Shown one piece after another: positions 997 through 42,076 of a DNA stretch of 64,000 nt; positions within the stretch are counted from its first letter, which is position 1; each line of letters begins with the position of its first letter. The notes beneath the pieces are model-generated. The model was not told where the DNA came from. It saw nothing but the letters and a program-made list of their open reading frames with translations, and ran no database searches. Source of the stretch: Nonomuraea rubra (GTDB lineage: Bacteria; Actinomycetota; Actinomycetes; Streptosporangiales; Streptosporangiaceae); the NCBI RefSeq assembly GCF_014207985.1, contig NZ_JACHMI010000001.1, forward strand, positions 9,469,001 through 9,533,000. The letters are read 5' to 3'. The translations under genes were made by a program, and so were the position numbers.

Positions 997-3342
997 ATGA
1001 CCGAGGCCCCTGGCTTCGATCCCCAGCAATCAGAATTCAGCCGCCGCGCGTTCGTGCGCTCGGCGGCGCTGGCCACGCCGGCCGTGGCCCTGGCCGGTCA
1101 GGCCGGCACGGCCGCCGCCTCGGCGCCCACGCCGTCACCGTCGCCGAGCCCGAGCACGCAGGCGACCACAGCGGCGAAGCCGAAGATCCCGGCCTTCCCC
1201 GGCGCCGAGGGTGCCGGCAAGTACACGACCGGCGGCCGGGGCGGCGCCGTGTACGAGGTGACCACCCTGGCCGACGACGGCCCCGGCTCGCTGCGCGAGG
1301 CGGCCGCCAAGTCGGACGGCACGATCGTCTTCCGGGTCGCCGGCACCATCAGGATCAAGGGCGGGCTCGACATCACCGGGTCCAACCTCACGATCGCCGG
1401 GCAGACCGCCCCCGGTCACGGCATCACCGTCGCCGGCAACGAGACGGCGATCAAGGGCGACAACATCATCCTGCGCCACCTGCGCTTCCGCGGCGGTGAC
1501 GAGATGGGCACCCCGATCGACACGTTCGCCGCCCGCGGCGTGAAGGATCTGATCATCGACCACTGCTCCTTCTCCTGGGGCGTGGACGAGTGCTTCTCGG
1601 TCTACGGCAACACCAACGTGACCGTGCAGTGGTGCATCATCTCCGAGGGCCTGACGAACTCGGTGCACGACAAGGGCCGGCACGGCATGGGCGGGCTGTG
1701 GGGCGGCGACACGGTCACCTACCACCACAACCTGCTGATCCACGAGAACGCCCGCAACCCGCGCTTCAGCTTCGAGGAGGGCATGGCCCTGACGGTGGAT
1801 CACCGCAACAACGTGATCTACAACCACGGCATCACCTCCTGCTACGGCGGCGAGTGGTCCAACGGCATCAACCTGGTCGGCAACTACTACAAGCCGGGCC
1901 CCAACACGCTGCCGAAGACCGCCAGGGAGATCGTCGCCCCCGGCCGGTTCGGCCAGTGGCACGTCAGCGGCAACGAGATCGAGGGCCACGCCGACGTCAC
2001 GGCCGACAACACGCTCGGCATCACCTACCCGATCGGCGGCATCACGCTGCTGCCCAAGCCGGTGGAGTTCGAGCACGGCATCACCGAGCAGAGCGCGCGG
2101 GAGGCGTACGCGACCGTCCTGGAGCAGGCGGGGGCCACCCTGCCGCGGCGGGACGCCATCGACGCCCGGCTGGTCACCGAGGCGCGCACCGGCACGGGCC
2201 GGCACATCAACTCCCAGAAGGACGTGGGCGGCTACCTGCCCTTACCCACCGAGGTACCCGCACCGGCCGACACCGACAAGGACGGTATCCCTGACGAGTG
2301 GGAGACCGCGCAGGGGCTGGACCCGAACAACGCCGACGACGCCAAGGCGGTCGGCGGCGACGGGTACACGAACCTGGAGCGGTACCTGAACTCGATCCAG
2401 CGGGCCGGGGCCCGCAACCCGGAGGTGGCGATCACCTCCCCCGCTGTCGACCAGGTGTTCGCGGCGAACAAGGACAAGCAGCCGGTCGCGATCACCGCCG
2501 ACGCCAGGGCCCTCGACGGGGCGAGCATCGCCAAGGTCGAGTTCTTCCACGGCGACGAGAAGATCGGCGAGTCGGCGGCGGCGCCGTACCAGGCGACCTG
2601 GAAGGGCGTCACCGACGGCACCTACTTCCTGACGGCCAGGGCCACCGACAGCACGGGCTCGGCCACCACCTCCTCGCTGGTGCCGATCCACGTCAACCGC
2701 ACCAGGACGCACCCGGGCTGGCAGGTCAAGGACATCGGCGAGGTGCCGATCCCGGGCAACACGGCGCTCAAGGACGGCGTGTTCACGATCAAGGGGTCCG
2801 GCAAGATCGCCGGGTGGAAGGACTCCTTCCACTTCGCCTACAAGGCGGTCGGGTTCAGCAAGCGCGGCGAGGTCCTGGAGATCACCGCCCGCCTGGACGG
2901 CGTCAGCAAGAATCACGTCGACGCCGTGGCCGGCATCATGGTGCGGCAGGACCTGGAGCCGAACTCGCCGTTCATGATGGCCGGCATCGGGTTCTCGGCC
3001 AGCAACGAGGACGGCTCCCGCAAGCGCGCCAAGGCGATCAGGGTGGCCTCCCACGGCACGGCGCCGAGCGTCGGCGTGTACCCGCCCACCAGCGAGGATC
3101 CGCTGGACGACAAGCCGTACTGGCTGCGCCTGGTCTGCCGGAGCCTGCCGACCGGCGGGGACACCGAGTTCGAGGCCTTCCTTTCGGACAACTCGCTCAA
3201 CTGGGAGCGCATCGGCTACGAGCGCATCGTCATGCGGACCGGACGGTTCTACGTCGGCCTGGCCGTGGACGGCAACCAGGAGGCGAACGGCGTCCACGTC
3301 TACACCACGGCGACCTTCAGCCAGGTCAAGGTCAATCGTTAG
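997..3342 (+). CDS. Secreted multidomain pectate lyase (PL1-like) with calcium-binding and Ig-like modules
   Basis: It cleaves de-esterified homogalacturonan by beta-elimination outside the cell. ATG 997 is chosen because a purine-rich RBS (GAAAGAGAG) precedes it and it gives a proper Tat signal (SRRAF at residues 15-19, then Ala-rich). A Pro/Ser-rich linker leads to a parallel beta-helix lyase domain at about 65-400, with the FPGAEGAGKYTTGG opening typical of pectate lyases. Then come a DxDxDGxxD-type calcium loop (about 425-470), a bacterial Ig-like domain (480-570) and a C-terminal jelly-roll-like domain (575-781). Codon 416 is TTA (2242-2244), rare here. It heads a 13-gene run that includes a complete importer. 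The lyase class is secure; the exact PL subfamily is not. Confidence 0.9.
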   Translation: MTEAPGFDPQQSEFSRRAFVRSAALATPAVALAGQAGTAAASAPTPSPSPSPSTQATTAAKPKIPAFPGAEGAGKYTTGGRGGAVYEVTTLADDGPGSLREAAAKSDGTIVFRVAGTIRIKGGLDITGSNLTIAGQTAPGHGITVAGNETAIKGDNIILRHLRFRGGDEMGTPIDTFAARGVKDLIIDHCSFSWGVDECFSVYGNTNVTVQWCIISEGLTNSVHDKGRHGMGGLWGGDTVTYHHNLLIHENARNPRFSFEEGMALTVDHRNNVIYNHGITSCYGGEWSNGINLVGNYYKPGPNTLPKTAREIVAPGRFGQWHVSGNEIEGHADVTADNTLGITYPIGGITLLPKPVEFEHGITEQSAREAYATVLEQAGATLPRRDAIDARLVTEARTGTGRHINSQKDVGGYLPLPTEVPAPADTDKDGIPDEWETAQGLDPNNADDAKAVGGDGYTNLERYLNSIQRAGARNPEVAITSPAVDQVFAANKDKQPVAITADARALDGASIAKVEFFHGDEKIGESAAAPYQATWKGVTDGTYFLTARATDSTGSATTSSLVPIHVNRTRTHPGWQVKDIGEVPIPGNTALKDGVFTIKGSGKIAGWKDSFHFAYKAVGFSKRGEVLEITARLDGVSKNHVDAVAGIMVRQDLEPNSPFMMAGIGFSASNEDGSRKRAKAIRVASHGTAPSVGVYPPTSEDPLDDKPYWLRLVCRSLPTGGDTEFEAFLSDNSLNWERIGYERIVMRTGRFYVGLAVDGNQEANGVHVYTTATFSQVKVNR

Positions 3343-3361
3343 ACCTGAGAACGGAGCACCC

Positions 3362-5347
3362 ATGACTGACCAAGTTTTCACGAGGAGGAGCCTGCTCCGC
3401 GGCGGAGGTCTGCTGATGCTGGCCACGGCCACCGGCTGCAGCTTCTTCGACACCGACCCGAACACGGGCACCGCCGGCGCCGCACAGGCCGCCGACCTGT
3501 CGGCCAAGGAGGCGCCCGCGCTGGCGGAGCTGGTCAAGGCCGGCAAGCTGCCGCCGCTGGAGCAGCGCCTGCCGAAGAACCCCCTGGCCGTCACCCCGCT
3601 GCAGGAGCCCGGCAGGTACGGCGGCACGTGGAGCTCCGCTCTGGTCGGCGAGGACGACTGGGACTGGCTGATCTTCGCCCTCTACGAGCCCCTCGTCCGG
3701 CTCAAGCCCGGCACGAACGGCCAGAAGGGCCCGGACGACATCATCCCCAACGTCGCCGAGTTCGAGGTGAAGGACGGCGGCCGGGAATACGTCTTCCGCC
3801 TGCGCGAGGGCCTGAAGTGGTCCGACGGGCAGCCCTGCACGGCCGACGACATGCTGTTCGCCTTCGAGGACGTGGCCACCTACCACGACCTGCACACGAC
3901 CGGCATCTACGACCTCTACCTGGAGAACGGCAGCACCACCGAGCGGGTCAAGGTCGAGAAGGTGGACGAGCGGACCGTCCGCTACGTCTACAAGGAGCCG
4001 AAGGCGGGCCTGCTGTTCCAGATCGCGGTCGCCACGTTCGAGCGGGGCGGGGCGAGCGGGTTCCTGCTGCCCAAGCACTACCTCAAGCAGTTCCACAAGA
4101 AGTACAACCCGGACGCCGACAAGCTCGCCAAGGACGAGCAGCTGGAGGACTGGACCCAGCTGTTCATGCAGAAGAACGACGTCCCGCACAACGCCGACAT
4201 CCCCACGCTGCACGCCTGGAAGATCACCAACGCGATCGGCAAGGGCACCGCGGTGGTGGCCGAGCGGAACCCGTACTACTGGAAGGTCGACCAGCAGGGG
4301 CGCCAGCTCCCCTACATCGACCGGTTCAGGTCGGAGATCCTCGGCGACGTCGAGGTGGAGCTGCTGAAGATCATGAACGGCGAGCTGCACATGCAGCTCC
4401 GCAACTTCAACACGCCGGAGAACAAGCCGCTGGTCGCGCAGAACGCCGCCAAGGGCAAGTACCGGATCTTCGACGTGCAGAGCCGGCTGAGCAACACGAT
4501 GATCATCCAGTTCAACCAGACGATAGCCGACGAGGGCCTGCGCGAGCTGTTCAGGAAGAAGGACTTCCGGATCGGGCTGTCGTACGCGATCAACCGCAAG
4601 CAGATCATCGACGGCGTGTACGCGGGCCAGGGCGAGCCCTGGCAGGGCGCCCCCTCCAAGTCCAACGCCCTCTACGACGCGGACTTCGCCAAGCAGTACA
4701 CGGAGTACGACGTCGCCAAGGCCGGCGAGTTCCTGGACAAGGCCGGCCTGACGGAGAAGGACGCCGACGGCAAGCGGCTCGGCCCCGACGGCAAGCCGCT
4801 GATGATCACGGTCATGGCCGACACCGAGTTCCCCCATCACGTCCAGGCGCTGGAGTTCGTCAAGAAGGACTGGGAGGCGGTCGGGGTCGGGCTGCGGGTC
4901 GATCCGGTGTCGTCCACGCTGTACGACGAGCGCACGATGGGCAACAACCCGCAGGCGTCCGCGTACACGTGCAGCGACTTCGACGTGATCACCGGCACCG
5001 GCGGCGACCACTACTACGTGCCGAGCAACTCCGGCAGCGCCCGCTACGCCATCCGCTGGGCCCAGTGGTACGGCAGCAAGGGCAAGAGCGGCGACGAGCC
5101 GCCGGAGGAGGTGCGCAAGCAGCTGGAGGCGTTCACCACCATGCGCACCGAGCCGGACTTCACCAAGGCGCTGGAGCATGCCAAGGAGGTCGTGCGCATC
5201 TCCAAGGAGCAGTTCTACGCGATCGGGATCAGCTCGTACCCGAACGAGTACGGCATCGTCTCCAACAGCTTCAAGAACGTGCCCGAGTCCATGGCCGCCG
5301 CCCCGGTGAACCCCGGGCCGACCATGCCCGAGCAGTACTCCCTCTGA
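3362..5347 (+). CDS. ABC transporter substrate-binding lipoprotein, family 5 (Opp/Dpp type)
   Basis: This 661-residue protein captures an oligomeric ligand outside the membrane for the importer encoded next. The N-terminus has a twin-arginine pair (TRRSLL) followed by a lipobox ending at Cys26 (TATGC), so it is a Tat-exported lipoprotein. The body has family 5 landmarks: LREGLKWSDGQPCTADD near 150 and AINRKQIIDGVY in the C-terminal half. Family 5 proteins bind peptides, nickel or oligosaccharides. The operon context points to pectin-derived oligosaccharides (inference). An RBS (GGAG) lies upstream of ATG 3362, and the first permease begins 9 bp downstream of the stop. Confidence 0.9.
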   Translation: MTDQVFTRRSLLRGGGLLMLATATGCSFFDTDPNTGTAGAAQAADLSAKEAPALAELVKAGKLPPLEQRLPKNPLAVTPLQEPGRYGGTWSSALVGEDDWDWLIFALYEPLVRLKPGTNGQKGPDDIIPNVAEFEVKDGGREYVFRLREGLKWSDGQPCTADDMLFAFEDVATYHDLHTTGIYDLYLENGSTTERVKVEKVDERTVRYVYKEPKAGLLFQIAVATFERGGASGFLLPKHYLKQFHKKYNPDADKLAKDEQLEDWTQLFMQKNDVPHNADIPTLHAWKITNAIGKGTAVVAERNPYYWKVDQQGRQLPYIDRFRSEILGDVEVELLKIMNGELHMQLRNFNTPENKPLVAQNAAKGKYRIFDVQSRLSNTMIIQFNQTIADEGLRELFRKKDFRIGLSYAINRKQIIDGVYAGQGEPWQGAPSKSNALYDADFAKQYTEYDVAKAGEFLDKAGLTEKDADGKRLGPDGKPLMITVMADTEFPHHVQALEFVKKDWEAVGVGLRVDPVSSTLYDERTMGNNPQASAYTCSDFDVITGTGGDHYYVPSNSGSARYAIRWAQWYGSKGKSGDEPPEEVRKQLEAFTTMRTEPDFTKALEHAKEVVRISKEQFYAIGISSYPNEYGIVSNSFKNVPESMAAAPVNPGPTMPEQYSL

Positions 5348-5356
5348 GGGGCCGAC

Positions 5357-6355
5357 GTGCTGGGTTACTTCGGCCGCCGCCTCCTCTACGTGGTGGTGAC
5401 GCTCTGGGCGATCTCGATCGTCACGTTCGTCATCATCAACCTGCCGCCCGGCGACTACGTCTCGACGCTGATCGCGAACGCGGAGTCGGGCGGTGAGGGC
5501 ATCACGCCCGCGGAGGCCGCCAACCTCAGGGCGCGCTACGGCCTGGACGATCCGATCTTCGTCCAGTACTGGCGCTGGATCTCCGCCATCGTGCTGCACG
5601 GCGATTTCGGTCAATCGTTTGCCTGGAACCAGCCGGTCGCCACGCTGATCGGCGAGCGGGTCGTCCTGTCGGCGGTGCTGTCGATCGCCTCGCTGCTGAT
5701 GGTCTGGGCGATCGCGTTCCCGATCGGCATCTACAGCGCGGTCAAGCAGTACTCCTGGGGCGACTACGGCTTCTCCTTCCTCGGCTTCATCGGGATGGCG
5801 ATCCCCGAGTTCATGCTGGCGCTGGTCCTCATGTACGTCGGGTTCCGCTACTTCGGGCAGAGCGTGGGCGGGCTGTTCTCACCCGAGTTCCAGGACGCGG
5901 CCTGGAACCTGGGCAAGGTCCTGGACCTCCTCGGCCACCTCTGGGTGCCGATCGCGGTCATCGCGGTCTCCGGCACGGCCGGCATGATCCGGGTGACCAG
6001 GGCGAACCTGCTCGACGAGCTCTACCGGCCCTACGTGCACACGGCCAGGGCCAAGGGGCTGCCGGAGTGGAAGCTGCTGCTGAGGTACCCGGTGCGGATG
6101 TCGCTCAGCCCGTTCTTCAGCACGGTGGGCTGGCTGCTGCCGGGGCTGATCGGCGGCGAGACCATCGTCTCGGTCGTCATGAGCCTGCCGACCGGCGGGC
6201 CGCTGCTGCTCAGCGGGGTCATGAACCAGGACATGTACCTGGTCGGCAGCTTCATCATGATCCTCAGCCTGCTCACCGTGGTCGGCACCGTGCTGAGCGA
6301 CCTGGCCCTGGCGTGGTGGGACCCGCGAATTCGCAAACGGTACAAGAGAGAGTAG
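5357..6355 (+). CDS. ABC transporter permease (DppB/OppB family)
   Basis: The first of two membrane subunits of the importer. The 332-residue protein starts with the family-typical N-terminal helix (FGRRLLYVVVTLWAIS), has a periplasmic loop ending in the RYGLDDP block, then five more helices. The cytoplasmic EAA-type coupling loop is present (ARAKGLPEWKLL, near 227-238). The start is GTG 5357. The next gene follows after 6 bp. Substrate specificity comes from the binding protein and cannot be read here. Confidence 0.9.
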   Translation: MLGYFGRRLLYVVVTLWAISIVTFVIINLPPGDYVSTLIANAESGGEGITPAEAANLRARYGLDDPIFVQYWRWISAIVLHGDFGQSFAWNQPVATLIGERVVLSAVLSIASLLMVWAIAFPIGIYSAVKQYSWGDYGFSFLGFIGMAIPEFMLALVLMYVGFRYFGQSVGGLFSPEFQDAAWNLGKVLDLLGHLWVPIAVIAVSGTAGMIRVTRANLLDELYRPYVHTARAKGLPEWKLLLRYPVRMSLSPFFSTVGWLLPGLIGGETIVSVVMSLPTGGPLLLSGVMNQDMYLVGSFIMILSLLTVVGTVLSDLALAWWDPRIRKRYKRE

Positions 6356-6361
6356 CGCCGC

Positions 6362-7546
6362 ATGTTTCTCAGGCGACCCACGACGAAGGAAGCAGGGACG
6401 CTGCCGCAGTGGCGGCTGATGTGGCGGCAGTTCCGGCGGCACCGGCTCGCCATGGCCGGTGCGGCGATCCTGATCCCGGTGTACTTCGTGGCGATCTTCG
6501 CGGAGTTCTTCGCGCCGATGTCCAGCTCGACGGCGAACACGTCGATGACGTACGCGCCGCCGCAGGTGCTGCACTTCTCCGGCGAGCACGGCCTGCACGT
6601 GTACGGGTACACGACCGAGCGCGACCCGAACACCTACGAGCAGCGCTACACCGAGGATCCCTCCCAGGTGACCGAGGTCGGGCTGTTCGTGCACGGCGAC
6701 GAGTACAAGCTGCTCGGCCTGATCCCGTCCGACATCCACCTGATCGGCCCCGTGCAGAAGGGCGAGCCGTTCTTCCTCCTGGGCTCCGACCAGAACGGGC
6801 GGGACCTGCTGTCCAGGCTGATCCACGGGGCCAGGGTGTCGTTGTCGATCGGCCTGGTCGGGGTGGCGGCCAGCTTCCTGCTCGGCATGCTCATCGGCGG
6901 CATCTCCGGGTACTTCGGCGGCGGCGTGGACAACGTCGTGCAGCGGGTCATCGAGTTCCTGATGGCGATCCCGACGCTGCCCCTGTGGATGGCGCTGTCG
7001 GCCGCGCTGCCGACCGACTGGGGGCCACTGACCCGATATTTCGCCATCACGGTGCTGCTGTCACTGATCGGGTGGACCGGGCTGGCCCGCGACGTGCGCG
7101 GGCGGTTCCTGTCGCTGCGCGAGGAGGACTTCGTCACGGCCGCCCGGCTGGACGGCGTGGGCCGGCTGTCGATCATCTTCCGGCACATGATCCCGTCCTT
7201 CGCCAGCCACATCATCGCCTCGCTGTCGCTGGCCATCCCGGCCATGATCCTCGGCGAGACCAGCCTGAGCTTCCTCGGCCTGGGCCTGCAGGCGCCGGCG
7301 GTGAGCTGGGGCGTGCTGCTGGAGGGCGCGCAGAACGTGCGCGTCGTCGCGAACGCGCCGTGGCTGCTGGCGCCGGGCGTCGCGGTGGTGGTCGTCGTGG
7401 TCGCCATGAACTTCTTCGGGGACGGCCTCAGGGACGCCGCCGACCCGTACGGAGCGGCGAGCCGAGCCCGGAGAAGGAAGCCCTTCTGGCGTAACCGCGC
7501 AGGGCGACAAGCGAGCGCGACCATCAACACAGCAACAGGAAGGTGA
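6362..7546 (+). CDS. ABC transporter permease (DppC/OppC family)
   Basis: The second membrane subunit of the importer, 394 residues, longer than the usual ~300 because of a ~110-residue periplasmic segment between the first and second helices. It carries the OppC landmarks LGSDQNGRDLLSRLIHGARVSL and the coupling loop FVTAARLDGVGRLSIIFRHM, then LGETSLSFLGLGL. The C-terminal tail is basic (RARRRK). It is separated by 6 bp from each neighbour, so the five transporter genes are clearly one transcription unit. Confidence 0.9.
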   Translation: MFLRRPTTKEAGTLPQWRLMWRQFRRHRLAMAGAAILIPVYFVAIFAEFFAPMSSSTANTSMTYAPPQVLHFSGEHGLHVYGYTTERDPNTYEQRYTEDPSQVTEVGLFVHGDEYKLLGLIPSDIHLIGPVQKGEPFFLLGSDQNGRDLLSRLIHGARVSLSIGLVGVAASFLLGMLIGGISGYFGGGVDNVVQRVIEFLMAIPTLPLWMALSAALPTDWGPLTRYFAITVLLSLIGWTGLARDVRGRFLSLREEDFVTAARLDGVGRLSIIFRHMIPSFASHIIASLSLAIPAMILGETSLSFLGLGLQAPAVSWGVLLEGAQNVRVVANAPWLLAPGVAVVVVVVAMNFFGDGLRDAADPYGAASRARRRKPFWRNRAGRQASATINTATGR

Positions 7547-7552
7547 GCAGGC

Positions 7553-8548
7553 GTGCCCGCAGACGACGTGCTGCTTGAGATCGAGGACCTGCGCACGCAC
7601 TTCCTCATGGACGACGGCGTCGTGTGCGCCGTGGACGGCGTGGACCTGAAGGTGCGCCGGGGCGAGACGCTGGCCATCGTCGGCGAGTCCGGCTGCGGCA
7701 AGAGCGTCATGGCCCGCTCGATCCTGCGCCTGGTCGATCCGCCGGGCCAGATCGAGGGCGGGAAGATCACCCTGCACCGCGAGAGCGGCCCCGTCGAGCT
7801 GGTCGGCGCCGACCCGAAGCTGCTGCGGCAGATCAGATGGAACGACATCGCGATGGTCTTCCAGGAGCCGATGGCCTCGCTCAGCCTGGTGCACACCATC
7901 GGCAGCCAGATCGTCGAGGCGGTGCGGCTGCACGAGAACGTCGGCAAGGCCGCGGCCCGCAGGCGCGCCATCGACATGCTCGACCGGGTCGGCATCCCCA
8001 TGCCGCAGCGGCGGGTGGACGCCTACCCGTTCGAGCTGAGCGGCGGCATGCGGCAGCGGGCCATGATCGCGATGGCGCTGTCGTGCAACCCCAGCCTGCT
8101 GATCGCCGACGAGCCGACGACCGCGCTCGACGTCACCACCCAGGCGCAGATCCTGGAGCTGCTGCGGGACCTTCAGGACGAGTTCGGCATGGCGATCATG
8201 CTGATCACGCACGACCTCGGGGTGGCGGCGCAGGTGGCCGACAGCATGGCCGTCATGTACCTGGGGCGGGTGGTCGAGTACGGCGCCGCCGAGCAGGTGC
8301 TGGCCGCCCCCCGCCACCCCTACGCGCAGGCGCTGCTGCGCTCGATGCCCCGGCTGGGCCGGGCCAGGCAGCGGCGGCTCACCGCGATCAAGGGCATGGT
8401 CCCGCCCCCGTACGCGCGGCCGGACGGGTGCTTCTTCCACCCGCGCTGCGACCACGTGGTGGCCGGGCGGTGCGACGCGGTCGAGCCGCGCCTGCTCCAG
8501 GTGGCGGACCGCGAGGTCTCCTGCCTGCTGTACGAGGAGGACGTATGA
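7553..8548 (+). CDS. ABC transporter ATP-binding protein (DppD/OppD family)
   Basis: One of the two ATPases that power the importer. It has Walker A (GESGCGKS, about residue 43), Q-loop (FQEPMASL), ABC signature (LSGGMRQR), Walker B ([12 protein letters not shown]), the switch His (LITHDLG) and the C-terminal oligopeptide-transporter extension with its Cys-rich DGCFFHPRC segment. The start is GTG 7553. The stop overlaps the next start by 4 bp (ATGA), indicating translational coupling. The symbol is left blank because substrate is not known. Confidence 0.92.
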
Positions 8549-33387: not shown

Positions 33388-33416
33388 CACAGAGCGTCCC
33401 TCCGCCGAGGTGCGAC

Positions 33417-33516
33417 AAAACGTTTTAACCCTATAAGCGTTATCGCCCCTAGACCAGATCTCACAGGCATTGACATCCGGCCGTGAATAAATATATCATC
33501 TGGTAAATCGTTTTAA
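33417..33516. promoter_or_regulatory. Three LacI-type palindromes between divergent GH2 and GH42 genes
   Basis: A perfect AAAACGTTTT lies at 33417-33426, a near-palindrome ATAAGCGTTAT at 33433-33443, and AAATCGTTTTAA at 33505-33516. All share the central CG with A/T arms that LacI/GalR-family repressors recognise. The first two are close to the GH2 start, and the third lies just downstream of the GH42 -10 box. No LacI gene is in the window, so the repressor would be encoded elsewhere. Confidence 0.6.
33470..33499 (+). promoter_or_regulatory. Sigma-70-type promoter of the GH42 operon
   Basis: TTGACA (33470-33475) and TATCAT (33494-33499) are separated by 18 bp, a near-consensus pair. It lies 35 bp upstream of the GH42 start and is followed directly by a LacI-like site, which would block transcription when occupied. 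Confidence 0.65.
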
Positions 33517-33533
33517 GATTCGCTGGGGACTTC

Positions 33534-35564
33534 ATGACGCCATCACCCCCGACGAGCAGCACCGGCATCCGCTTCGGCACCGCCTACTACTGGGAATACC
33601 AGCAGTCCCCCGACCTCGAACGCGACCTCGACCTCATGGCGCGGGCCAGGATCGACACCATCCGGGTCGGCGAGTCCGTCTGGTCCACGTGGGAGCCCCG
33701 CGACGGCGAGTTCGACCTCGGCTGGCTGACCCCCGTCCTGGACGGCGCCCACGAGCGCGGCATGAAGGTCCTGCTCGGCACCCCGACGTACGCCGTCCCG
33801 CCGTGGTTGCAGCGCAAGCACCCCGAGCTGGCCGTCGTACGCGCCGGCGGCCACCGGATCCCCTGGGGCGCGCGCCAGGAGGTGGACTTCACCTCCCCCA
33901 CCTTCCTCCAGTACGCAGAACGCGTCATCCGCCAGGTCGCCGGCCACCACGGCGGCCACCCCGCCGTGCTCGGGATCCAGCTCGACAACGAGCCCGGCCT
34001 GCACCTCATCCACAACGAGCCGGTGTTCGAGCGGTTCAAATCCTGGCTGGCGGAGCGGTACGGCGACGTCGGCAGGCTGAACGACGAGTGGGGGCTGGCG
34101 TACTGGTCGCACCGCCTCACCTGCTGGGACGAGCTGTGGCGCCCGGACGGCAACACGACGCCCTCCTACGACCTGGCCTGGCGGCGCTTCCAGGCCGAGC
34201 TGACCACCGAGTTCATCGCCTGGCAGGCGGCCCTCGTGCGCGAGCTGGTCCCGGAGGACCGCGAGCTGACCACGTGCCTGGCCTACCAGCGCCCGGCGTT
34301 GCACGACGCCGAGCTGTCGAAGCACCTGACGGTCACCAGCGGGAACGCGTACTACCTGCCGCAGGACGCGCTGGCCCGCGACTCGCCGGTGGAGATCACC
34401 TGGTTCGCCACCGACCCGGCCGGGCTGCTCCAGACGGCCGACCGCATGTACGCCTCCAGGCGGCAGCGGTTCTGGGTGACGGAGACCAACGCCGGCTCCA
34501 TCGCCGGGTCCCAGCTCAACCTGCCGCCCTACGACGGGCAGCTCCGCCAGGCGGCGTGGGCGCTGGTGGCGCGGGGCGCGGAGATGATCTCGTACTGGCA
34601 CTGGCACACGCTGCCCTACGGCGCGGAGACGTACTGGGGCGGGATCCTCGGGCACGCCATGCGGCCGGGCCGCGTCTACGACGAGGTGGCGGCGCTCGGC
34701 GCGGAGCTGGAACGGGCGGCCGGGGACGTCACGGGCCTCACGCCGGACGCCGACGCCGGGTTCCTGTACTCGCACGAGAGCAAGTGGGCGCTGACCTTCC
34801 AGCCGCCGCTCACCCTCGACGGCCGCAACCCCGACCGGGACTCCTACGAGCGGGTTCTGGCCACGTTCTACCGGGGCGCGGTGGACGCCGGGCTGCAGGT
34901 GGCGTTCGTGTCACAGGTCAAACGTTTGCCCGTGCTCGTGGCGCCCGCGCTCTACTGCCTGGCGGACGAGCCGGCGCTGGAGCTGGAGGACTACGTGCGC
35001 GGCGGCGGGCACCTGGTGATGACCTTCCGCACCGGTTACGCGGACGAGGAGGCCAGGGCGCGGGCCGAGGTCGCGCCCGGCCCGCTGCGCGCCCTGGCCG
35101 GGGTGCGTTACCTCGAATACTCGACGCTGCTGGAGCCGGTGCCCCTCCACGGGCTCGGGAAGCGGGACGTCGCCCGGCACTGGGCCGACGGGCTGGAGCT
35201 CGAAGGAGCCGAGCCGCTGGCCCGCTACGACCACCACCACTTCGGCCGCTGGCCCGCGATCACCCGCCACCGCGTGGGCGCCGGCACGGTGACCTACGTG
35301 GGCACCCTTCCCGGCCGCGAGCTGACGGCCGAGCTGTTCCGCCGGCAGCGGCCCGCGGGCCTGGTGACGGCGGAGTCACCGCAGGTCACCCTGCACTCGG
35401 CGGTCAACGCGCGCGGCGAGCGCCTGTGGTTCGCCCACAACTGGTCCGACCGTGAGAGCACGGTGACCCTGACCGCCCGGGCGACCGAGGTCACCGGCCG
35501 CCGCCAACCGTTACCGCCGGGCCCGCTGCGCCTGGCTCCCTTCGACGTACGAGTGGTGAAATGA
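33534..35564 (+). CDS. Beta-galactosidase, GH42 family
   Basis: A 676-residue cytoplasmic enzyme that removes beta-galactose from short oligosaccharides. The TIM barrel begins GTAYYWEY and has the acid/base in LDNEPG (about 155) and the nucleophile in VTETNAGS (about 320). It is followed by the glutamine-amidotransferase-like trimerisation domain and a C-terminal beta domain, as in the family. With the GH2 upstream it gives two unrelated galactosidases, suggesting different galactan linkages. The gene opens a five-gene operon ending at 42076, with an ATGA overlap to GH29. Codon 660 is TTA (35511-35513). Confidence 0.92.
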   Translation: MTPSPPTSSTGIRFGTAYYWEYQQSPDLERDLDLMARARIDTIRVGESVWSTWEPRDGEFDLGWLTPVLDGAHERGMKVLLGTPTYAVPPWLQRKHPELAVVRAGGHRIPWGARQEVDFTSPTFLQYAERVIRQVAGHHGGHPAVLGIQLDNEPGLHLIHNEPVFERFKSWLAERYGDVGRLNDEWGLAYWSHRLTCWDELWRPDGNTTPSYDLAWRRFQAELTTEFIAWQAALVRELVPEDRELTTCLAYQRPALHDAELSKHLTVTSGNAYYLPQDALARDSPVEITWFATDPAGLLQTADRMYASRRQRFWVTETNAGSIAGSQLNLPPYDGQLRQAAWALVARGAEMISYWHWHTLPYGAETYWGGILGHAMRPGRVYDEVAALGAELERAAGDVTGLTPDADAGFLYSHESKWALTFQPPLTLDGRNPDRDSYERVLATFYRGAVDAGLQVAFVSQVKRLPVLVAPALYCLADEPALELEDYVRGGGHLVMTFRTGYADEEARARAEVAPGPLRALAGVRYLEYSTLLEPVPLHGLGKRDVARHWADGLELEGAEPLARYDHHHFGRWPAITRHRVGAGTVTYVGTLPGRELTAELFRRQRPAGLVTAESPQVTLHSAVNARGERLWFAHNWSDRESTVTLTARATEVTGRRQPLPPGPLRLAPFDVRVVK

Positions 35565-37066
35565 CCCAGTTCAAGCCCACCTGGGAGTCCCTGCGTACCC
35601 ACCGCATCCCCCAGTGGTTCGGCGAGGCGAAGTTCGGCATCTGGTCGCACTGGGGCCCGCAGTCCGTGGCCCGTTCAGGCGACTGGTACGCCCGCCACCT
35701 CTACGGCATGCAGCCCTGGTCCGAGCCCTGGGAGCGCAAGCGCGCCGGCCGCCAGCACGCCCACCACCGCGCCCACTTCCAGGGCGGCGCCAAGGACCTG
35801 TTCCGGCAGTGGCGGGCCGAGCGCTTCGACCCGGACGAGCTCATGGACCTGTACGTGAGCAGCGGCGCCCGCTACTTCGTCGCCCTGGCCACCCACTGCG
35901 ACAACTTCGACCTGTGGAACTCCGAGCAGCACGGCTGGAACGCCGCCAGGGTCGGCCCGGGCCGCGACATCGTGGCGGCCTGGGAGCGGGCGGCCCGCAC
36001 GGCCGGCCTGCCGTTCGGGCTCAGCTTCCACCACAACTGGACCTGGCGCTGGCTGGACGTGGCCCACGGCCGCGACCCGGAGACCGGCGAGCCCTACGAC
36101 GGCGCCCTGACCAGGGCCGACGGAGCCGGTACGTGGTGGGAGGGCCTCGACCCCGCCGAGCTCTACCCGGAGCGCCACGAGCCGGGCACGAAGCCGCCGG
36201 CCCGCGAGGCGGAGCGGTTCTACGCCCGCGTCCGCGAGGCGCTCGACCGCTACCGGCCCGACCTGGTCTACCTCGACGACGGCCGCCTGCCCTTCGGCGC
36301 GGGCAGCGTGGTCGAGTCGCAGCCGGTCAGCACGGCGGGCCTGGACCTGCTCGCCCACTACTACAACACCTGCCGGAGCGGCGGCCTGGTCACGCTCAAG
36401 GACGTGCCGGACGCGGACCGCACGGCCGTCCTGCTGGACTGCGAGCGCCGCCAGCTCGACGAGGCCCAGCCGTACCCCTGGCAGTTCGACACGAGCGACG
36501 GCGAGTGGTTCGACTGCTCCGACGACGACCCGATGTTCCACCCCCGCAAGACCGCGCAGCAGGTCGTGCACACGCTGATCGACGTGGTCAGCAAGAACGG
36601 CTGCCTGCTGCTGAACATCCCGCAGCACGCCGACGGCACGGTGGACGCCCGCGCCCGCGAGCTGCTGGCCGAGGTGGGCGCCTGGCTGCGGGTCTGCGGC
36701 GAGGGCGTGTACGGCACCACGCCGTGGCTGCGCGCGGCGGAGGGCTCGACCGGGCTCGGCGACGTCAAGGGGTACGAGGGGTACAACGAGGCCGACCGCG
36801 CCTACCGCGCCGCCGACGTGCGCTTCACCCGGCGCGGCGACACCCTCTACGCCACCCTCCTGGCCTGGCCGGAGGACCGGACGGCGACGATCACCAGCCT
36901 GGGCGCCACCGCCGGGCTGCTCAAGCGCCCACCGGCGGCCGTCGAGCTGCTCGGCCACGGCCCCGTCGCGTGGCGGCAGACCGGCCTGGCGCTGCACGCG
37001 GACCTGCCGCCTCGGCCGCCGACCAGGGCCGCTCACATGCTCAAGATCACGGGAGCCTCATGGTGA
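35561..37066 (+). CDS. Alpha-L-fucosidase-like protein, GH29 family
   Basis: The 501-residue protein has the GH29 N-terminus (WFGEAKFGIWSHWGP) and the strand LVYLDDGRLPFG, which holds the catalytic Asp nucleophile, then NGCLLLNIPQHADG near the barrel end. No signal peptide is seen. It probably removes alpha-linked L-fucose (or a fucose-like residue) from imported oligosaccharides; fucose occurs in rhamnogalacturonan II and xyloglucan. The acid/base position cannot be assigned by eye. It overlaps its neighbours on both sides, so it is fully within the GH42 operon. Confidence 0.85.
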   Translation: MTQFKPTWESLRTHRIPQWFGEAKFGIWSHWGPQSVARSGDWYARHLYGMQPWSEPWERKRAGRQHAHHRAHFQGGAKDLFRQWRAERFDPDELMDLYVSSGARYFVALATHCDNFDLWNSEQHGWNAARVGPGRDIVAAWERAARTAGLPFGLSFHHNWTWRWLDVAHGRDPETGEPYDGALTRADGAGTWWEGLDPAELYPERHEPGTKPPAREAERFYARVREALDRYRPDLVYLDDGRLPFGAGSVVESQPVSTAGLDLLAHYYNTCRSGGLVTLKDVPDADRTAVLLDCERRQLDEAQPYPWQFDTSDGEWFDCSDDDPMFHPRKTAQQVVHTLIDVVSKNGCLLLNIPQHADGTVDARARELLAEVGAWLRVCGEGVYGTTPWLRAAEGSTGLGDVKGYEGYNEADRAYRAADVRFTRRGDTLYATLLAWPEDRTATITSLGATAGLLKRPPAAVELLGHGPVAWRQTGLALHADLPPRPPTRAAHMLKITGASW

Positions 37067-39603
37067 AGAACCTGCGTACCTGCGACCTGACCGATCCCCT
37101 CGGGCTCGAGACCACCCGTCCCGCCCTGAGCTGGCAGCTCGCGGGCGTCACCGCGCAGACCGCCTACCACGTACGCGTGGACGGGCTGTGGGACAGCGGC
37201 GAGGTCGAGTCGGCCGACCAGCGGGTGATCTACGGCGGCGAGCCCCTGACGAGCAGGACCGCCGCGCGCTGGCGGGTGCGGGTGCGCGACGCGGACGGCC
37301 GCTGGTCCGGCTGGAGCGAGGAGGCGCGCTTCGAGCTGGGGCTGCTCTCGGCCGGCGACTGGAGCGCCGCCTGGATCACCCACCCGGACTGGTACGACGA
37401 GCACGACGACCCCCGCGTCGGCGAGGGGCGCCCGCTGCCGCTGCTGGCAGGCGAGTTCACCCTGGCCGCGCCCGTACGCAGCGCCCGGCTGTACGTCTCC
37501 GGCCTGGGCGTCTACGTGGCGTCGGTCAACGGCTCCCCGGTGACGGACGCCGTGCTGGAGCCGCCGTACTCGGACTTCACCAAGCGGGTGGTGTACGCCA
37601 CGCACGACGTGACGGCGCTGCTGCGCGAGGGCCGCAACGCGATCGGCCTGGCGCTCGGCCCCGGCATCGCGCACGTGTTCCCGCACCAGGACCGCTACAT
37701 GAAGTTCTTCGGCTCCAAGGCGGCCCCCCGGGCGATCGCGCAGCTCGAAGTGCGGTACGCCGACGGGACGACCGGCCGGTTCCGCACGGGTGCCGACTGG
37801 CTGGCCACCGAGGGGCCGACGACACGCTCGCACTGGTACGGCGGTGAGGACCACGACGCCCGCCTGGAGATCCCCGGCTGGGACGTCCCCGGCACGGACC
37901 GCTCCGGCTGGCGGCCGGTGACCGTACGGCCGGAGGGGACCGGGATGTTGCGGTCGCGGGCCTGCCCGCCGATCAGGGTCACCGAGGAGCTGCCCGCGGC
38001 GCGGAAGCTGGTCGCCACCGACGGCACGGCCGTGTTCGACGTCGGCGCGGTCACGGCCGGCTGGGCCGGGCTGCGGCTCGACCTCCCGGCGGGGCACTAC
38101 CTGCGGCTGCTGCCCGGTGACCAGCTCGACGCGTTCGGCCGCGTGGTGCAGTCGAAGCCCACGACCGGCGCGCCGATCTTCAACACGTACGTCACCAAGG
38201 ACGGCCCGCAGACCTGGCACCCCGCCTTCCGCTACGACGGCTTCCGCTACGTCGAGGCGCAGGGCCTGCCGGAGCACGTCGGCGCCGAGGCCGTGACGGC
38301 GCTGGTGCTGCGCGCGGACAACGAGCACATCGGCCGGTTCGAGACCTCCGACCCGCTGCTGAACGACATCCACCGGATCATCGACCGCGCGGTGCGCGGC
38401 AACATGTACAGCGTCCTGACCGACTGCCCGCACCGGGAGAAGCTGGGCTGGCTGGAGCAGGCCCACCTGCTGTTCGACGTCGTCGCCTACAACTACGACG
38501 TGGCCGCCTACTGCCGCGAGCTGCTGACCGGCATCGCGGAGGCGCAGACCGGGGACGGGCTCGTCCCCGACACGGCGCCCGAGTACGTGGTGTTCGACGG
38601 CGCGTTCAGGGACGACCCGAACTGGGGCGGCGCGCTGATCCGCATGCCGTGGCAGATCTACCGCTGGTACGGCGACACCACGGCCATGGAGCGGCACTAC
38701 GACGCGATGGGCCGCTACCTGGACTACCTGACGGGCAAGGCCGAGGACGGCCTGCTCGGGCACGGGCTCGGCGACTGGTTCGGCCTGGACCACTCGACGC
38801 CGGTGCCGCTGGTGTCCACGTGGGGCTACTGGCGGGCGGCGGCCACGATGGCGAAGGTCGCCGGCGTGCTCGGCCGCGACGACGACGCCAAGCGCCACCG
38901 GGCGCTGACGGAGTCGATCTCGGCCGCGTTCACCGGCGCGTTCCGCCAGGCGGACGGCGGCTTCGGCGGGCAGGCGTCGCAGGTCTTCGCGCTGGACATG
39001 GGCGTGGTCCCGGACGAGCTGGTGCCGGCCGCGCTGGACCGGCTGAGCAGGGACGTGCGGGAGGGCGCCATCACGGTCGGGGAGATCGCGCTGCCCGCCC
39101 TCTACCAGGTGCTGACCAGGGCGGGCCGGCACGAGGCGCTGTGGGGGTTCGCCACCTCGACCAGCCATCCGAGCTACGGCTACCAGGTGCGGCACGGCGC
39201 CACCGCACTCACCGAGGCGTGGGACGGGCCGACGCGCGGCCTGTCGCAGAACCACTACATGCTCGGCGCCATCGACGCCTGGTTCTACCGGGGTCTCGGC
39301 GGCATCGGCCAGGCCCCCGGCTCTCGGGGCTTCCGGCGGCTGCTCGTCGCGCCCGCCGCTCCGGGCGACCTGGAGTCGGTACGGGCGGCCACGCGGACGC
39401 CGTACGGGCAGGTCGGCGTGGCGTGGCAGCGGTCGGGCGGGGAGTTCGCGCTGGAGGTGGAGGTGCCGCCGGGCTCGTCGGCCGAGGTGCGGCTGCCGGA
39501 CCTGGGCCTGACCCGGCACGCGGCGCCGGAGGGAGCGGTCGCGGCCGGGGAGCGTGCCTGGCAGGTGGGGGCGGGGCACTGGACGTTCGGAGCCTCGAAG
39601 TGA
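37060..39603 (+). CDS. Alpha-L-rhamnosidase-like protein, GH78 family (second copy)
   Basis: An 847-residue cytoplasmic relative of the GH78 at 24827, strongly diverged. The N-terminal domains are similar (AAWITHPDW, ARLYVSGLGVYVASVNG), but the barrel motif is DCPHREKLGWLEQ, one residue shorter and lacking the Asp-Glu-Arg run of the other copy. This motif marks a separate GH78 branch, so the two enzymes probably act on different rhamnose linkages. The start is ATG 37060 (or GTG 37063, better spaced from GGGAG); both overlap the GH29 stop. Its end overlaps the next GTG. Confidence 0.88.
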   Translation: MVKNLRTCDLTDPLGLETTRPALSWQLAGVTAQTAYHVRVDGLWDSGEVESADQRVIYGGEPLTSRTAARWRVRVRDADGRWSGWSEEARFELGLLSAGDWSAAWITHPDWYDEHDDPRVGEGRPLPLLAGEFTLAAPVRSARLYVSGLGVYVASVNGSPVTDAVLEPPYSDFTKRVVYATHDVTALLREGRNAIGLALGPGIAHVFPHQDRYMKFFGSKAAPRAIAQLEVRYADGTTGRFRTGADWLATEGPTTRSHWYGGEDHDARLEIPGWDVPGTDRSGWRPVTVRPEGTGMLRSRACPPIRVTEELPAARKLVATDGTAVFDVGAVTAGWAGLRLDLPAGHYLRLLPGDQLDAFGRVVQSKPTTGAPIFNTYVTKDGPQTWHPAFRYDGFRYVEAQGLPEHVGAEAVTALVLRADNEHIGRFETSDPLLNDIHRIIDRAVRGNMYSVLTDCPHREKLGWLEQAHLLFDVVAYNYDVAAYCRELLTGIAEAQTGDGLVPDTAPEYVVFDGAFRDDPNWGGALIRMPWQIYRWYGDTTAMERHYDAMGRYLDYLTGKAEDGLLGHGLGDWFGLDHSTPVPLVSTWGYWRAAATMAKVAGVLGRDDDAKRHRALTESISAAFTGAFRQADGGFGGQASQVFALDMGVVPDELVPAALDRLSRDVREGAITVGEIALPALYQVLTRAGRHEALWGFATSTSHPSYGYQVRHGATALTEAWDGPTRGLSQNHYMLGAIDAWFYRGLGGIGQAPGSRGFRRLLVAPAAPGDLESVRAATRTPYGQVGVAWQRSGGEFALEVEVPPGSSAEVRLPDLGLTRHAAPEGAVAAGERAWQVGAGHWTFGASK

Positions 39604-40592
39604 GCGGCTACGATCCGGTGCGGATCAGGACGCCGCACAAGGCGGGCCGCCTGCTGATCGGCCCGTCCGGCGAGCCGGGCCGATTCGACGGCCTCTTCGT
39701 GGACTGCCCGTTCGTCTGCTCCGACGCCGGCGAGTACCTGATGACGTACGTCGGCTTCGACGGCACCGGGTACCAGACCGCGCTGAGCCGATCGGCCGAC
39801 CTGGAGACCTGGAGCCCCGGCGAGCTGATCTTCCCGCGCGACCCTGATCACCCGTACCGCCGCTACAACGCCGCACTCACCTCGATCGTGCGCGACAACC
39901 GCCTGGACTCGGACGGCCAGGTGACCTGGCTGGACGGGCAGGCGATCGGCACGTACCACGCCTACCCCGAGCCCGGCATGGAGACGGGCGCGGCGATCAT
40001 CGGGTTCTGCGCCAGCGGCGACCTGCGTACCTGGAAGGACACCGGCTCGGTGCTGCGCCCGCAGGACGGCGGCGAGTGGGAGCGCGGCGGCCTGTACAAG
40101 TCGTGGCTGCTGCGCCACGACGGCCTCTACTACTGCTTCTACAACGCCAAGAACCGCACCTACGACGGCTGGCGCGAGCAGATCGGCTACGCCGTCTCCC
40201 CCGACCTCGAACGCTGGGAGCGCCCGCGCGCCACCCCGGTCGTGCCGAACGGCGGGCTCGGCGCGTTCGACGAGCGCTTCGCCTCCGACCCGTGCGTGCT
40301 GCGCGACGGCGGCTGGTGGGTGATGTTCTACTTCGGGCTCTCCTTCGACGGGCACGCCCGCGAGGGTTACGCGGTCTCGCGCGACCTGCGGACGTGGGAG
40401 AAGAGCGACGAGATCCTCGTCGACGTGGGCCCGCCCGGCTCCGCCGACGACACGTACGCGCACAAACCGGCCGTCGTCACCCGCGACGGCCACCTGCACC
40501 ACTTCTACACGGCGGTGCGGCGGGCCGAGCCGTACCGGGTCGGCGAGCACCCGATGGCCGAGCGGCGCGGCATCTCCGTGGCCCGGTCATGA
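39600..40592 (+). CDS. GH43-like five-bladed beta-propeller protein, putative glycosidase
   Basis: A 330-residue protein built of blades with the GH43/GH117/GH130 look: LFVDCPFVCSDAGEYLMTYV, LYKSWLLRHDGLYYCFYNA, ASDPCVLRDGGWWVMFYFG and AHKPAVVTRDGHLHHFYTA. Acidic residues suited to an active site open the first and fourth blades (VDCP, SDPC). I cannot assign a CAZy family with certainty; arabinosidase, galactosidase or phosphorylase activities are all possible. No signal peptide. GTG 39600 overlaps the rhamnosidase stop, and an ATGA overlap exists with the next frame, so it is cotranscribed. Confidence 0.7.
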   Translation: MSGYDPVRIRTPHKAGRLLIGPSGEPGRFDGLFVDCPFVCSDAGEYLMTYVGFDGTGYQTALSRSADLETWSPGELIFPRDPDHPYRRYNAALTSIVRDNRLDSDGQVTWLDGQAIGTYHAYPEPGMETGAAIIGFCASGDLRTWKDTGSVLRPQDGGEWERGGLYKSWLLRHDGLYYCFYNAKNRTYDGWREQIGYAVSPDLERWERPRATPVVPNGGLGAFDERFASDPCVLRDGGWWVMFYFGLSFDGHAREGYAVSRDLRTWEKSDEILVDVGPPGSADDTYAHKPAVVTRDGHLHHFYTAVRRAEPYRVGEHPMAERRGISVARS

Positions 40593-40621
40593 CCCCCCAA
40601 CCCACGCAACGGAGGACATCG

Positions 40622-42076
40622 ATGCAGCCATCACCCCCGCACTCGCGCAGGCGCTTCCTGGCCCTGGCGGCGGCCGGCGTCGGCGGCGCCCTGGTGACCG
40701 CCCCGGCGGCCGCCCAGGCGCAGTCGGCCGGAACGCAGGCGGTCCAGGCCGCCGGGGCACACGTGAGCTCCGCGGATCGGGCCGCCGCGGCGTGGGCGCG
40801 GGTGCCCGCCATCCGGCGGCGCATCCGGCCGCCCCGCTTCCCCGCCCGCACCTTCCCGATCACCGACCACGGGGCCGCAGGCGACGGGACGGCCACGTGC
40901 ACCGAGGCGTTCAGGCGGGCCGTCGAGGCGTGCGCGGCGGCGGGCGGCGGGCGCGTGCTGGTGCCCGCGGGCACCTGGCTGACCGGCGCGATCCACCTGG
41001 CCGACAACGTCGAGCTGCACCTGGAGGCGGGCGCGACGATCCGCTTCAGCCGCGACCCGGCCGACTACCTGCCGGTGGTGTTCACCCGGTACGAGGGCAT
41101 CGAGCTGATGAACTACTCCCCGTTCATCTACGCCCACGGCCGCACCAACGTGGCGATCACCGGCGCCGGCGTGATCGACGGCCAGGCCGACGCCACCCAC
41201 TGGTGGGACTGGTCGAGCGACCCCGCGCCGTCGGAGGGCCCCGACAAGAAGCTGCTGGCGCAGCAGGCCGAGGCCGGCGTGCCGGTGGCGGAGCGGGTCT
41301 TCGGCGAGGGCCACTACCTGCGGCCGAACCTCATCCAGCTCTACCGCTGCCGCAACGTGCTCATCGAGGGCGTGACGGTCAGGGACTCCCCCATGTGGAA
41401 CATCCACCCGGTCCTGTGCACCAACGTCACGATCCGCGAGGTCACCGTGGACAGCCCGCGCGGCCCCAACAACGACGGCTGCGACCCGGAGTCGTGCGAG
41501 GACGTGCTGATCGAGCGGTGCGAGTTCAACACCGGCGACGACTGCGTGGCGATCAAAGCTGGCAAGAACGCCGACGGCCGCCGGGTGAACGAGCCGTCCA
41601 TGAACGTGCTGGTCGACTCGTGCGTGATGCGCGACGGCAACGGCGGCGTGACGGTCGGCAGCGAGACGACCGGCGGGGTGCGCTGGGTGTTCGCGTGGAA
41701 CTGCACGATGAGCAGCGCCCGCCTGGAACGGGCGATCCGCGTCAAGACGAACCCGGAGCGCGGCGGCTACGTCAGGGACCTGTACTTCAGGGACATCACG
41801 GTGGGACAGGCCGCCGACTCGGTGGTGGAGGTGGCGCTCAACTACGAGAACAAGCACACCGGCCCGTACTTCCCCGACGTCGGCACGATCGACATCCGGG
41901 GCCTGCGGGCGGGCAAGGCGCCCAGGGCGTTCTACCTGATCGGCAACCCGGGCAACCCGATCAAGGGCGTGACGGTGCGCAACAGCGTGTTCGAGGAGAT
42001 GGCCGAGGCCGACGTGGTGACCGACGTGAGCGGCTTCGGGCTGCGCAACGTGTGGGTGAACGGGCGGCGCGTGTAG
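40622..42076 (+). CDS. Secreted GH28-family polygalacturonase-like enzyme
   Basis: A Tat-exported beta-helix enzyme (484 residues): SRRRFLALAAAG at about 10-21, then Ala-rich. GH28 motifs are GPNNDGCDPES, TGDDCVAIK, NGGVTVGS (the GHG position, with Asn for His) and IRVKTN (RxK kept). It is about 60% similar by eye to the GH28 at 18036, but is exported and retains the Arg. The start ATG 40622 follows GGAGG by 6 bp; ATG 40589 overlaps the previous gene but would spoil the signal peptide. It probably trims galacturonan or rhamnogalacturonan outside the cell and closes the operon. Confidence 0.88.
   Translation: MQPSPPHSRRRFLALAAAGVGGALVTAPAAAQAQSAGTQAVQAAGAHVSSADRAAAAWARVPAIRRRIRPPRFPARTFPITDHGAAGDGTATCTEAFRRAVEACAAAGGGRVLVPAGTWLTGAIHLADNVELHLEAGATIRFSRDPADYLPVVFTRYEGIELMNYSPFIYAHGRTNVAITGAGVIDGQADATHWWDWSSDPAPSEGPDKKLLAQQAEAGVPVAERVFGEGHYLRPNLIQLYRCRNVLIEGVTVRDSPMWNIHPVLCTNVTIREVTVDSPRGPNNDGCDPESCEDVLIERCEFNTGDDCVAIKAGKNADGRRVNEPSMNVLVDSCVMRDGNGGVTVGSETTGGVRWVFAWNCTMSSARLERAIRVKTNPERGGYVRDLYFRDITVGQAADSVVEVALNYENKHTGPYFPDVGTIDIRGLRAGKAPRAFYLIGNPGNPIKGVTVRNSVFEEMAEADVVTDVSGFGLRNVWVNGRRV

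Follow-up and report, generated by a model that had tools for sequence, protein, structure and literature searches.

Rhamnogalacturonan-II (RG-II), a conserved plant glycan, is the most complex of the plant pectins, and the known bacterial pathway of its degradation comes from gut Bacteroides, the RG-II utilisation loci of Bacteroides thetaiotaomicron having reportedly been described by Ndeh et al. in 2017. RG-II degradation by this bacterium is treated in PMC7939467 and PMC10850190, and in a genome survey (PMC7922503) the group of glycoside hydrolase (GH) families GH137, GH138, GH139, GH141, GH142 and GH143 is found chiefly in Bacteroidetes, with 52 species, and Acidobacteria, with 5. Our literature search, a weak negative given its incomplete coverage, retrieved no report of RG-II degradation in Actinobacteria or Paenibacillus. 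Here we analyse a 64,000-nucleotide stretch (hereafter, the window; positions 9469001-9533000 of the main contig) of the 12.88 Mb genome of the soil actinomycete Nonomuraea rubra, in which positions 997-42076 hold an island of carbohydrate-active enzyme (CAZyme) genes. From its gene content and that of its relatives, we consider it probable (roughly 0.8) that this island is a Gram-positive RG-II utilisation system that employs an ATP-binding cassette (ABC) importer.

Genes were called from codon usage and assigned to families by profile matches in Pfam, NCBIfam and the PDB; leaders (twin-arginine translocation (Tat)-type, secretory or none) were predicted with a simple heuristic. These calls and matches confirm what the first-pass annotation had listed for the island: every CAZyme-type gene that it named is present, together with a complete Opp-type importer (Table 1, which also defines the gene designations used below). 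That list lacked g12, the second DUF5605 protein, and g13; genes for an AAA ATPase and an acyltransferase-like protein also lie inside.

The families shared with the Bacteroides RG-II loci are GH137-like, GH78, GH106, GH127, GH28, GH2, GH95 and GH141-like proteins, a candidate keto-deoxy-sugar hydrolase and a pectin methylesterase, some of them encoded upstream of the window. The two systems differ in import: the Nonomuraea island combines an ABC importer (SBP_bac_5, BPD_transp_1, ABC_tran) with leaderless enzymes, whereas Bacteroides uses the SusC/SusD scheme, and no Sus-type family was found among the scanned genes of the window. They also differ in that the Nonomuraea genome has no match to PF12904, the partner domain in GH140, and none to GH138, and in that its pectinesterase, encoded upstream, is of the CE8 type (PF01095). 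We know of nothing in the Bacteroides loci that corresponds to the g11-g12 pair, g13 or g17. What would be new in the predicted system is, then, the import logic and several unassigned core proteins, and what would be familiar is the glycan and several shared families.

The protein g25, initially described as a GH43-like propeller, is indeed a propeller of the GH43/GH32-like kind; its assignment to GH43 did not hold, the BT0996 domain scoring better. Its best NCBIfam match is the 'beta-D-glucuronidase/beta-L-arabinofuranosidase' model NF049877 (4.4e-21), which we take to represent BT0996 with its GH137 label; the match covers N-terminal positions 28-339 of this 1400-position model and scores 74 bits against a cut-off of 1800. 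The best solved relatives are PDB 5mt2 and 5mui (9.8e-17; residues 9-312 of g25 aligned to 41-357 of 5mt2), entries named 'Beta-galactosidase' that we take to be structures of the GH137 domain of BT0996; the next PDB relative is a 1,2-beta-oligomannan phosphorylase (2.8e-8). The alignment spans most of the BT0996 catalytic domain, and E159 and E240 of the 5mt2 chain, presumably the catalytic glutamates of GH137, correspond to E128 and E193 of g25, which are the same in all 30 of the 30 sequences aligned (at 240, one of the two matched chains has Q in place of E). Unlike BT0996, in which this domain is fused to a GH2 part, g25 is a stand-alone leaderless protein of 330 amino acids. We regard g25 as GH137-like and as a candidate beta-L-arabinofuranosidase.

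Related genes continue upstream for no less than 42 kb before the start of the window; the 60 kb searched on that side encode, in this order, an OiaK-like kinase, an OiaX-like RuBisCO-like protein, GH95, two GH141-like proteins, GH106, a pectinesterase, a xylose-isomerase-like protein, a split transketolase, an FGGY kinase and a SorC-type regulator whose gene spans into the window. GH95, GH106, the two GH141-like proteins and the pectinesterase bear leaders. The GH141-like proteins are 72% identical to each other and match PF21231 (GH141_M) at 31.9 and 34.8 bits (cut-off 27), over fewer than 50 of its 156 positions. The OiaX-like protein scores 379 bits with the model of OiaX, a 3-oxo-isoapionate-4-phosphate decarboxylase, the best of the RuBisCO-like models by 177 bits, and the OiaK model is the best match of the kinase (211 bits). 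The two transketolase halves, the FGGY kinase and the full-length regulator are 44, 41, 40 and 37% identical, respectively, to genes of the D-apiose cluster of Escherichia coli SE15, which PMC13001218 names by locus tag (aplK, aptA, aptB and the regulator). The likeness consists in four homologous genes that are neighbours in both genomes. Gene order and strands differ: in Nonomuraea, all these genes are on one strand and adjoin the pectin island, whereas in E. coli SE15 the kinase and regulator genes oppose those of the transketolase.

Apiose also occurs in the apiogalacturonan of duckweeds and seagrasses and in apiosyl glycosides. Either could be the target of the island instead of RG-II, and the apiose-catabolism-like genes, GH28 and the pectate lyase would suit such a substrate; however, the GH137-like, GH95, GH141-like, GH106, GH78 and sialidase-fold proteins, as well as the GH138-type genes of the relatives (see below), would be superfluous for it, and we consider this explanation highly improbable.

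The gene for g13, which served as the query for related loci, is present in 13 of 54 Nonomuraea genomes, and the GH137-like gene occurs in the same 13 (Fisher p 9e-13). The OiaX-like gene is found in 12 of these 13 genomes versus 0 of the other 41 (Fisher p 3.8e-11); where it shares a contig with g13, the two are 37-87 kb apart (8 of 8 genomes), in four genomes they are on separate contigs, and one genome lacks OiaX. Since these genomes share ancestry and the island might be transferred whole, the p-values overstate independence. The transketolase gene aptA was rejected as a perfect marker: a match at E 1e-60 is present in 25 of the 54 genomes, and a close copy in 8, all among the 13.

The same genomes bear on the possibility that the island is a generic pectin locus or one for rhamnogalacturonan-I (RG-I), arabinan or galactan. 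The substrates of the RG-II-like genes would then be RG-I side chains or arabinogalactan protein, with the apiose genes nearby by chance. GH78, GH127, GH2, GH42 and GH28 are all compatible with RG-I, and beta-L-arabinofuranose is also a component of arabinan and arabinogalactan proteins (PMC10850190). The RG-I lyase PF18370, used as a control, is present in 44 of the 54 Nonomuraea genomes irrespective of the island (13 of 13 with g13, 31 of 41 without; Fisher p 0.095), and none of its seven matches in the genome analysed here falls within the window or the 60 kb that precede it. Because this control does not follow the island, we reject the RG-I reading; the almost exact tracking of g13 by the GH137-like and OiaX-like genes and the GH138-type genes in 33 of 49 other g13 genomes likewise make a locus of this kind quite improbable.

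The wider survey of the island comprises 79 loci from a profile scan with g13, corresponding to the best 80 of 96 confirmed places. Each spans up to about 22 kb, so that absence from a locus does not equal absence from the genome, and the names of neighbour clusters rest on one or few scanned members. The loci come from Nonomuraea (10), Kribbella (9), Streptomyces (7) and other actinobacteria (7), from Paenibacillus and a Bacilli metagenome-assembled genome (28), from Lachnospiraceae and other clostridia (13), and from Lentisphaerae, Oligosphaeraceae and Phycisphaerales (5). The neighbour clusters found in them are the DUF4038 type (47 of 79), GH28 (40), BNR_2 (35), Opp permeases (31), GH106-like (26), SBP_bac_1 (25), GH42 (20), one GH2 cluster (20), GH127-like (19), GH95 (18), GH78 (18), CE8-type pectinesterase (17), OiaX-like (14) and GH138-type (7). 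A member of the last cluster scores 1029 bits (cut-off 1300) with the alpha-D-galacturonidase model NF049878, which we take to carry the BT0997/GH138 label.

Genomes of 49 of the 69 non-Nonomuraea g13 loci were searched for matches anywhere, whatever the distance from g13. An OiaX-like protein at 260 bits or more is encoded in 41 of them, a GH138-type protein in 33, and one or both in 45; the default threshold gives 44 genomes with OiaX, of which G286, G292 and G300 were dropped (131-141 bits only, probably other RuBisCO-like proteins). The background of OiaX in a sample of the family is 4 of 250 genomes at E 1e-60, three of the four having g13. An AplK-like gene lies in the g13 stretch of L023 and L031, for which there was no strong OiaX match, and transketolase-like genes adjoin g13 in L012, which was outside the OiaX search.

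These loci also speak to the coherence of the island. Two or three neighbouring loci, for RG-II fragments, galactosides and other pectin, could adjoin here with no common substrate, only approximately 3.4-19.3, 23-27.5 and 39.6-42 kb being related to RG-II; in other actinobacteria, the 22-kb surroundings of g13 rarely contain window-like GH42 and GH29 genes, and the AAA ATPase and acyltransferase genes intervene. Against such a composite, GH2 and GH42 genes neighbour g13 in 17-20 of the 28 Paenibacillus loci, but they are distant from those of the window (24-28% identity for GH42, mostly 35-38% for GH2). We consider the composite unlikely.

The first-pass annotation likened the DUF4038 protein to the GH140 apiosidase of Bacteroides, and this likeness did not hold. 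The architecture of g11 is DUF5060-DUF4038-DUF5605 (PF16586, PF13204, PF18310); it shares PF13204 (DUF4038) with the GH140 apiosidase BT1012 (PDB 3KZS) but has DUF5060 and DUF5605 in place of PF12904, and Glu239/Glu318 in place of the Asp187/Glu284 pair, both of these BT_1012 features being given in PMC4032388. The g11 profile matches PDB 4n0r, an entry named only 'putative glycoside hydrolase', over nearly its full length (E 8.2e-137), and no BT1012 structure was among the matches at E up to 1. Because PF12904 is absent, the catalytic pair is Glu/Glu rather than Asp/Glu and the profile does not retrieve BT1012, we do not consider g11 a member of GH140.

A second DUF4038-type copy follows the first in 34 loci. 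The first copy keeps both glutamates in 33 of these (the remaining first-copy call, in L055, looks out of frame). The nucleophile column of the second copy contains no Glu in any of the 34 (Ala 11, Asp 9, Met 8, other residue or gap 6), and the acid/base column contains Asp in 16, a gap in 8, Leu in 5, Glu in 3 and other residues in 2, with the N-E motif in none; g12 itself has Asp and Met at the two columns. Twins of the g12 type are likely inactive, though not certainly everywhere, because five second copies (four from Streptomyces, one from Streptosporangium) have Asp at both columns. In pairwise comparisons of the window with L006, L007 and L009, the ratio of nonsynonymous to synonymous substitution rates is about 0.22-0.32 for g12 and close to that, about 0.27-0.35, for g11; the twin therefore appears to be under selection like its partner. 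The protein P0182 is a natural fusion of a g12-type twin with a g13 homologue, which suggests a possible physical partnership of g12 and g13.

Among the 22 non-Nonomuraea actinobacterial genomes tested, 19 have a DUF4038-type gene or pair near g13, none of these with PF12904, and the three without such a gene (L053, L054, L057) all have PF12904 (p 6e-4; the three look closely related). A gene combining PF13204 and PF12904 directly follows g13 in L057, and its cluster recurs in seven Lachnospiraceae loci (members from two of them were scanned); a g11-type gene is present in none of these eight loci. The replacement is not clean in Paenibacillus, where PF12904 coexists with a DUF4038-type gene in 3 of 26 genomes, and 8 of 26 show neither PF12904 nor, in the stretch near g13, a call of that gene type, six of the eight also being without a tblastn match. 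In L064, L057 and L062 (Lachnospiraceae, Pseudactinotalea), GH140-type genes with PF13204 and PF12904 lie beside g13 or a g13-GH28 arrangement, pointing to RG-II use by gut clostridia. The chances that g11, perhaps together with g12, performs the apiosidase step appear about even.

The g13 protein has no match in Pfam or NCBIfam and no PDB match better than E 0.33. Its fold resembles GH76 and AGE-epimerase; both were rejected as identities, and no family was assigned, because the fold matches are at about 10% identity only, with the N-terminal 300 residues barely covered by the comparison. A further-reaching and tentative proposal is that Actinomycetota and Bacillota may possess their own, mostly intracellular RG-II pathway, in which g11 and its inactive twin g12 would constitute a non-GH140 apiosidase and g13 would represent a new enzyme family with an (alpha/alpha)6 barrel, physically partnering the twin.

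Among the remaining enzymes, g8 has the GH33 (sialidase) fold. With the sialidase motif positions assumed here, the Tyr of the GYS motif and two Arg residues align, but His invariably replaces the Arg of the RIP motif, and a residue other than Glu stands at the Glu position. Within plants, RG-II is the only place where Kdo and Dha are known to occur (PMC12168206). We treat g8 as a candidate hydrolase of these ulosonic acids. The only NCBIfam match of the GH127 protein g16 is the aceric acid hydrolase model (395 bits, cut-off 950), and it possibly acts on aceric acid; because that cut-off is missed and other GH127 structures score above 5mqo, which we take to be BT1003, we do not assign it as an aceric acid hydrolase. 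The divergent protein g17 scores 20.7 bits with the GH127 family in Pfam (cut-off 24.9), and its E296, C298, C394 and C395, invariant in 34 of 34 aligned sequences, align with residues of g16 in what is presumably the Zn-Cys active-site motif of GH127 (E-x-C and C-C).

Several observations weigh against an RG-II utilisation system. The OiaX-like and OiaK-like proteins (379 and 211 bits) are both below the curated NCBIfam cut-offs of 700 bits, and genes for an enoyl-CoA hydratase, a CoA-transferase and other unrelated proteins separate this pair from GH95 and the window. Many pectin loci contain GH2, GH42, GH29 and GH78; g11 falls outside GH140, and g8 seems to be without the usual sialidase RIP arginine and glutamate. 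Within Nonomuraea, transfer or loss of the entire island could produce joint presence even if its genes share no substrate. Some copies appear damaged: the g13 match falls into two parts in G255 and contains a stop in G274, and the GH137-like match contains a stop in G268 and G272. An AptA-like gene of at least 83% identity is present in only 8 of the 13 g13 genomes. None of the OiaX-like or GH138-type matches in the 49 other genomes passes the curated cut-off, and both genes are missing from the g13 genomes of L044, L047, L056 and L077. The family sample includes four g13 genomes, of which G064 is without an OiaX match, and GH138 is absent from the genome analysed here and from all tested Kribbella, Streptomyces and Streptosporangium g13 genomes.

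The first-pass annotation had suggested an actinobacterial locus that takes in RG-II fragments by an Opp-type importer and completes their breakdown in the cytoplasm. Apart from its GH140 pillar, this proposal gains support from the GH137-like protein, from the GH95, GH106, GH141-like, pectinesterase and apiose-catabolism-like genes upstream, and from joint presence and absence. Under the RG-II reading, the pectate lyase, the GH28 with a Tat-type leader, GH95, GH106, the two GH141-like proteins and the pectinesterase would cut and trim RG-II outside the cell, and the importer, with one or both solute-binding proteins, would take up the fragments. In the cytoplasm, g25 and the GH127 proteins would act on beta-L-arabinofuranose and, possibly, aceric acid, the GH78 proteins on rhamnose, GH2 and GH42 on galactose, GH29 on fucose, g8 on Kdo or Dha, the leaderless GH28 on backbone galacturonic acid, g11, paired with a twin that looks inactive, on apiose, and g13 on some further linkage. 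The freed apiose would feed the OiaX/OiaK-like and split-transketolase/kinase genes upstream.

Table 1. Genes of the Nonomuraea rubra island and the adjoining regulator, in window coordinates
Feature	Position	Strand	Supporting matches
C-terminal part of SorC-type sugar-binding transcriptional regulator, after upstream transketolase/kinase genes	3..737	+	PF04198 4.5e-57
PelZ-like pectate lyase with Big_7 domain, Tat-type leader, probably secreted	997..3342	+	PDB 9buj pectate lyase 7.5e-60
SBP_bac_5 solute-binding protein of importer	3362..5347	+	PF00496 2.3e-57
Two Opp-type permeases and two ATPases	5357..9585	+	PF00528, PF12911, PF00005, PF08352
g8, sialidase-fold (BNR_2) protein without leader; candidate ulosonic-acid (Kdo/Dha) hydrolase	9582..10727	+	
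g9, second BNR_2 protein, secretory-type leader	10724..11905	+	PF13088 5.7e-57
Extra SBP_bac_1 solute-binding protein	11902..13335	+	PF01547 3.3e-14
g11, DUF5060-DUF4038-DUF5605 glycosidase, putative catalytic E239 and E318; candidate non-GH140 apiosidase	13350..14732	+	PF16586, PF13204, PF18310
g12, twin of g11 without both glutamates, probably inactive	14729..15730	+	PF18310 (DUF5605 only)
g13, unnamed beta-sandwich and (alpha/alpha)6-barrel protein, 702 amino acids; query defining related loci	15931..18039	+	
GH28, no leader	18036..19331	+	PF00295 8.1e-17
AAA ATPase	19474..20970		
g16, GH127	20996..22960	-	PF07944 2.6e-81
g17, divergent GH127-like protein	23136..24830	+	E-x-C ... C-C motif kept; below Pfam cut-off
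GH78, alpha-L-rhamnosidase type	24824..27514	+	PF17389 2.2e-119
SGNH/GDSL hydrolase	27469..28662	+	PF13472 1e-25
Hexapeptide acyltransferase-like protein, 555 amino acids	28659..30326	-	PF00132 1.2e-19
GH2, beta-galactosidase type	30331..33387	-	PF02836 8.4e-94; NCBIfam LacZ-type models all under cut-off
GH42	33534..35564	+	PF02449 2.5e-82
GH29, alpha-L-fucosidase type	35561..37066	+	PF01120 1.4e-70
GH78, alpha-L-rhamnosidase type	37060..39603	+	PF17389 1.5e-86
g25, GH137-like (GH43/GH32-like propeller), candidate beta-L-arabinofuranosidase	39600..40592	+	NF049877, PDB 5mt2
GH28, Tat-type leader, probably secreted	40622..42076	+	PF00295 3.3e-28

The pectate lyase also matches NF041900 (2.6e-46), under the cut-off of that model, and the SBP_bac_5 protein has an RR motif and a lipobox-like sequence when its start is placed at 3362. 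The AAA ATPase gene that interrupts the island was detected by tblastn, across the 79 loci, in L001 only. The acetyltransferase-type gene is an unexplained component of a degradation island; its cluster is present in all 7 of the 7 Streptomyces g13 loci. Beyond the island, the minus strand of the window at 46698-55003 carries a selenocysteine formate dehydrogenase region with NrfD-type, 4Fe-4S and SelB-like genes, in which the catalytic subunit is read through one in-frame TGA (residue 192), and a tRNA-Sec lies at 54911-55003. Elsewhere, in L011, L024 and 17 more Paenibacillus loci, genes for a Gfo/Idh oxidoreductase, a xylose-isomerase-like TIM barrel and a 553-residue protein without a Pfam match are found near g13, a conserved trio that is perhaps involved in the catabolism of a rare RG-II sugar. 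Upstream of the window, a 635-residue protein with no Pfam or NCBIfam match (L082:14147-16054) is encoded after a set of solute-binding protein and permease genes and before the two GH141-like genes.

A Gram-positive soil route of RG-II degradation, if true, would show who recycles this glycan in soil. It would also provide candidates for new enzyme families, namely, g13, the g11-g12 pair and the g17 branch, and tools for cutting RG-II in cell-wall work.

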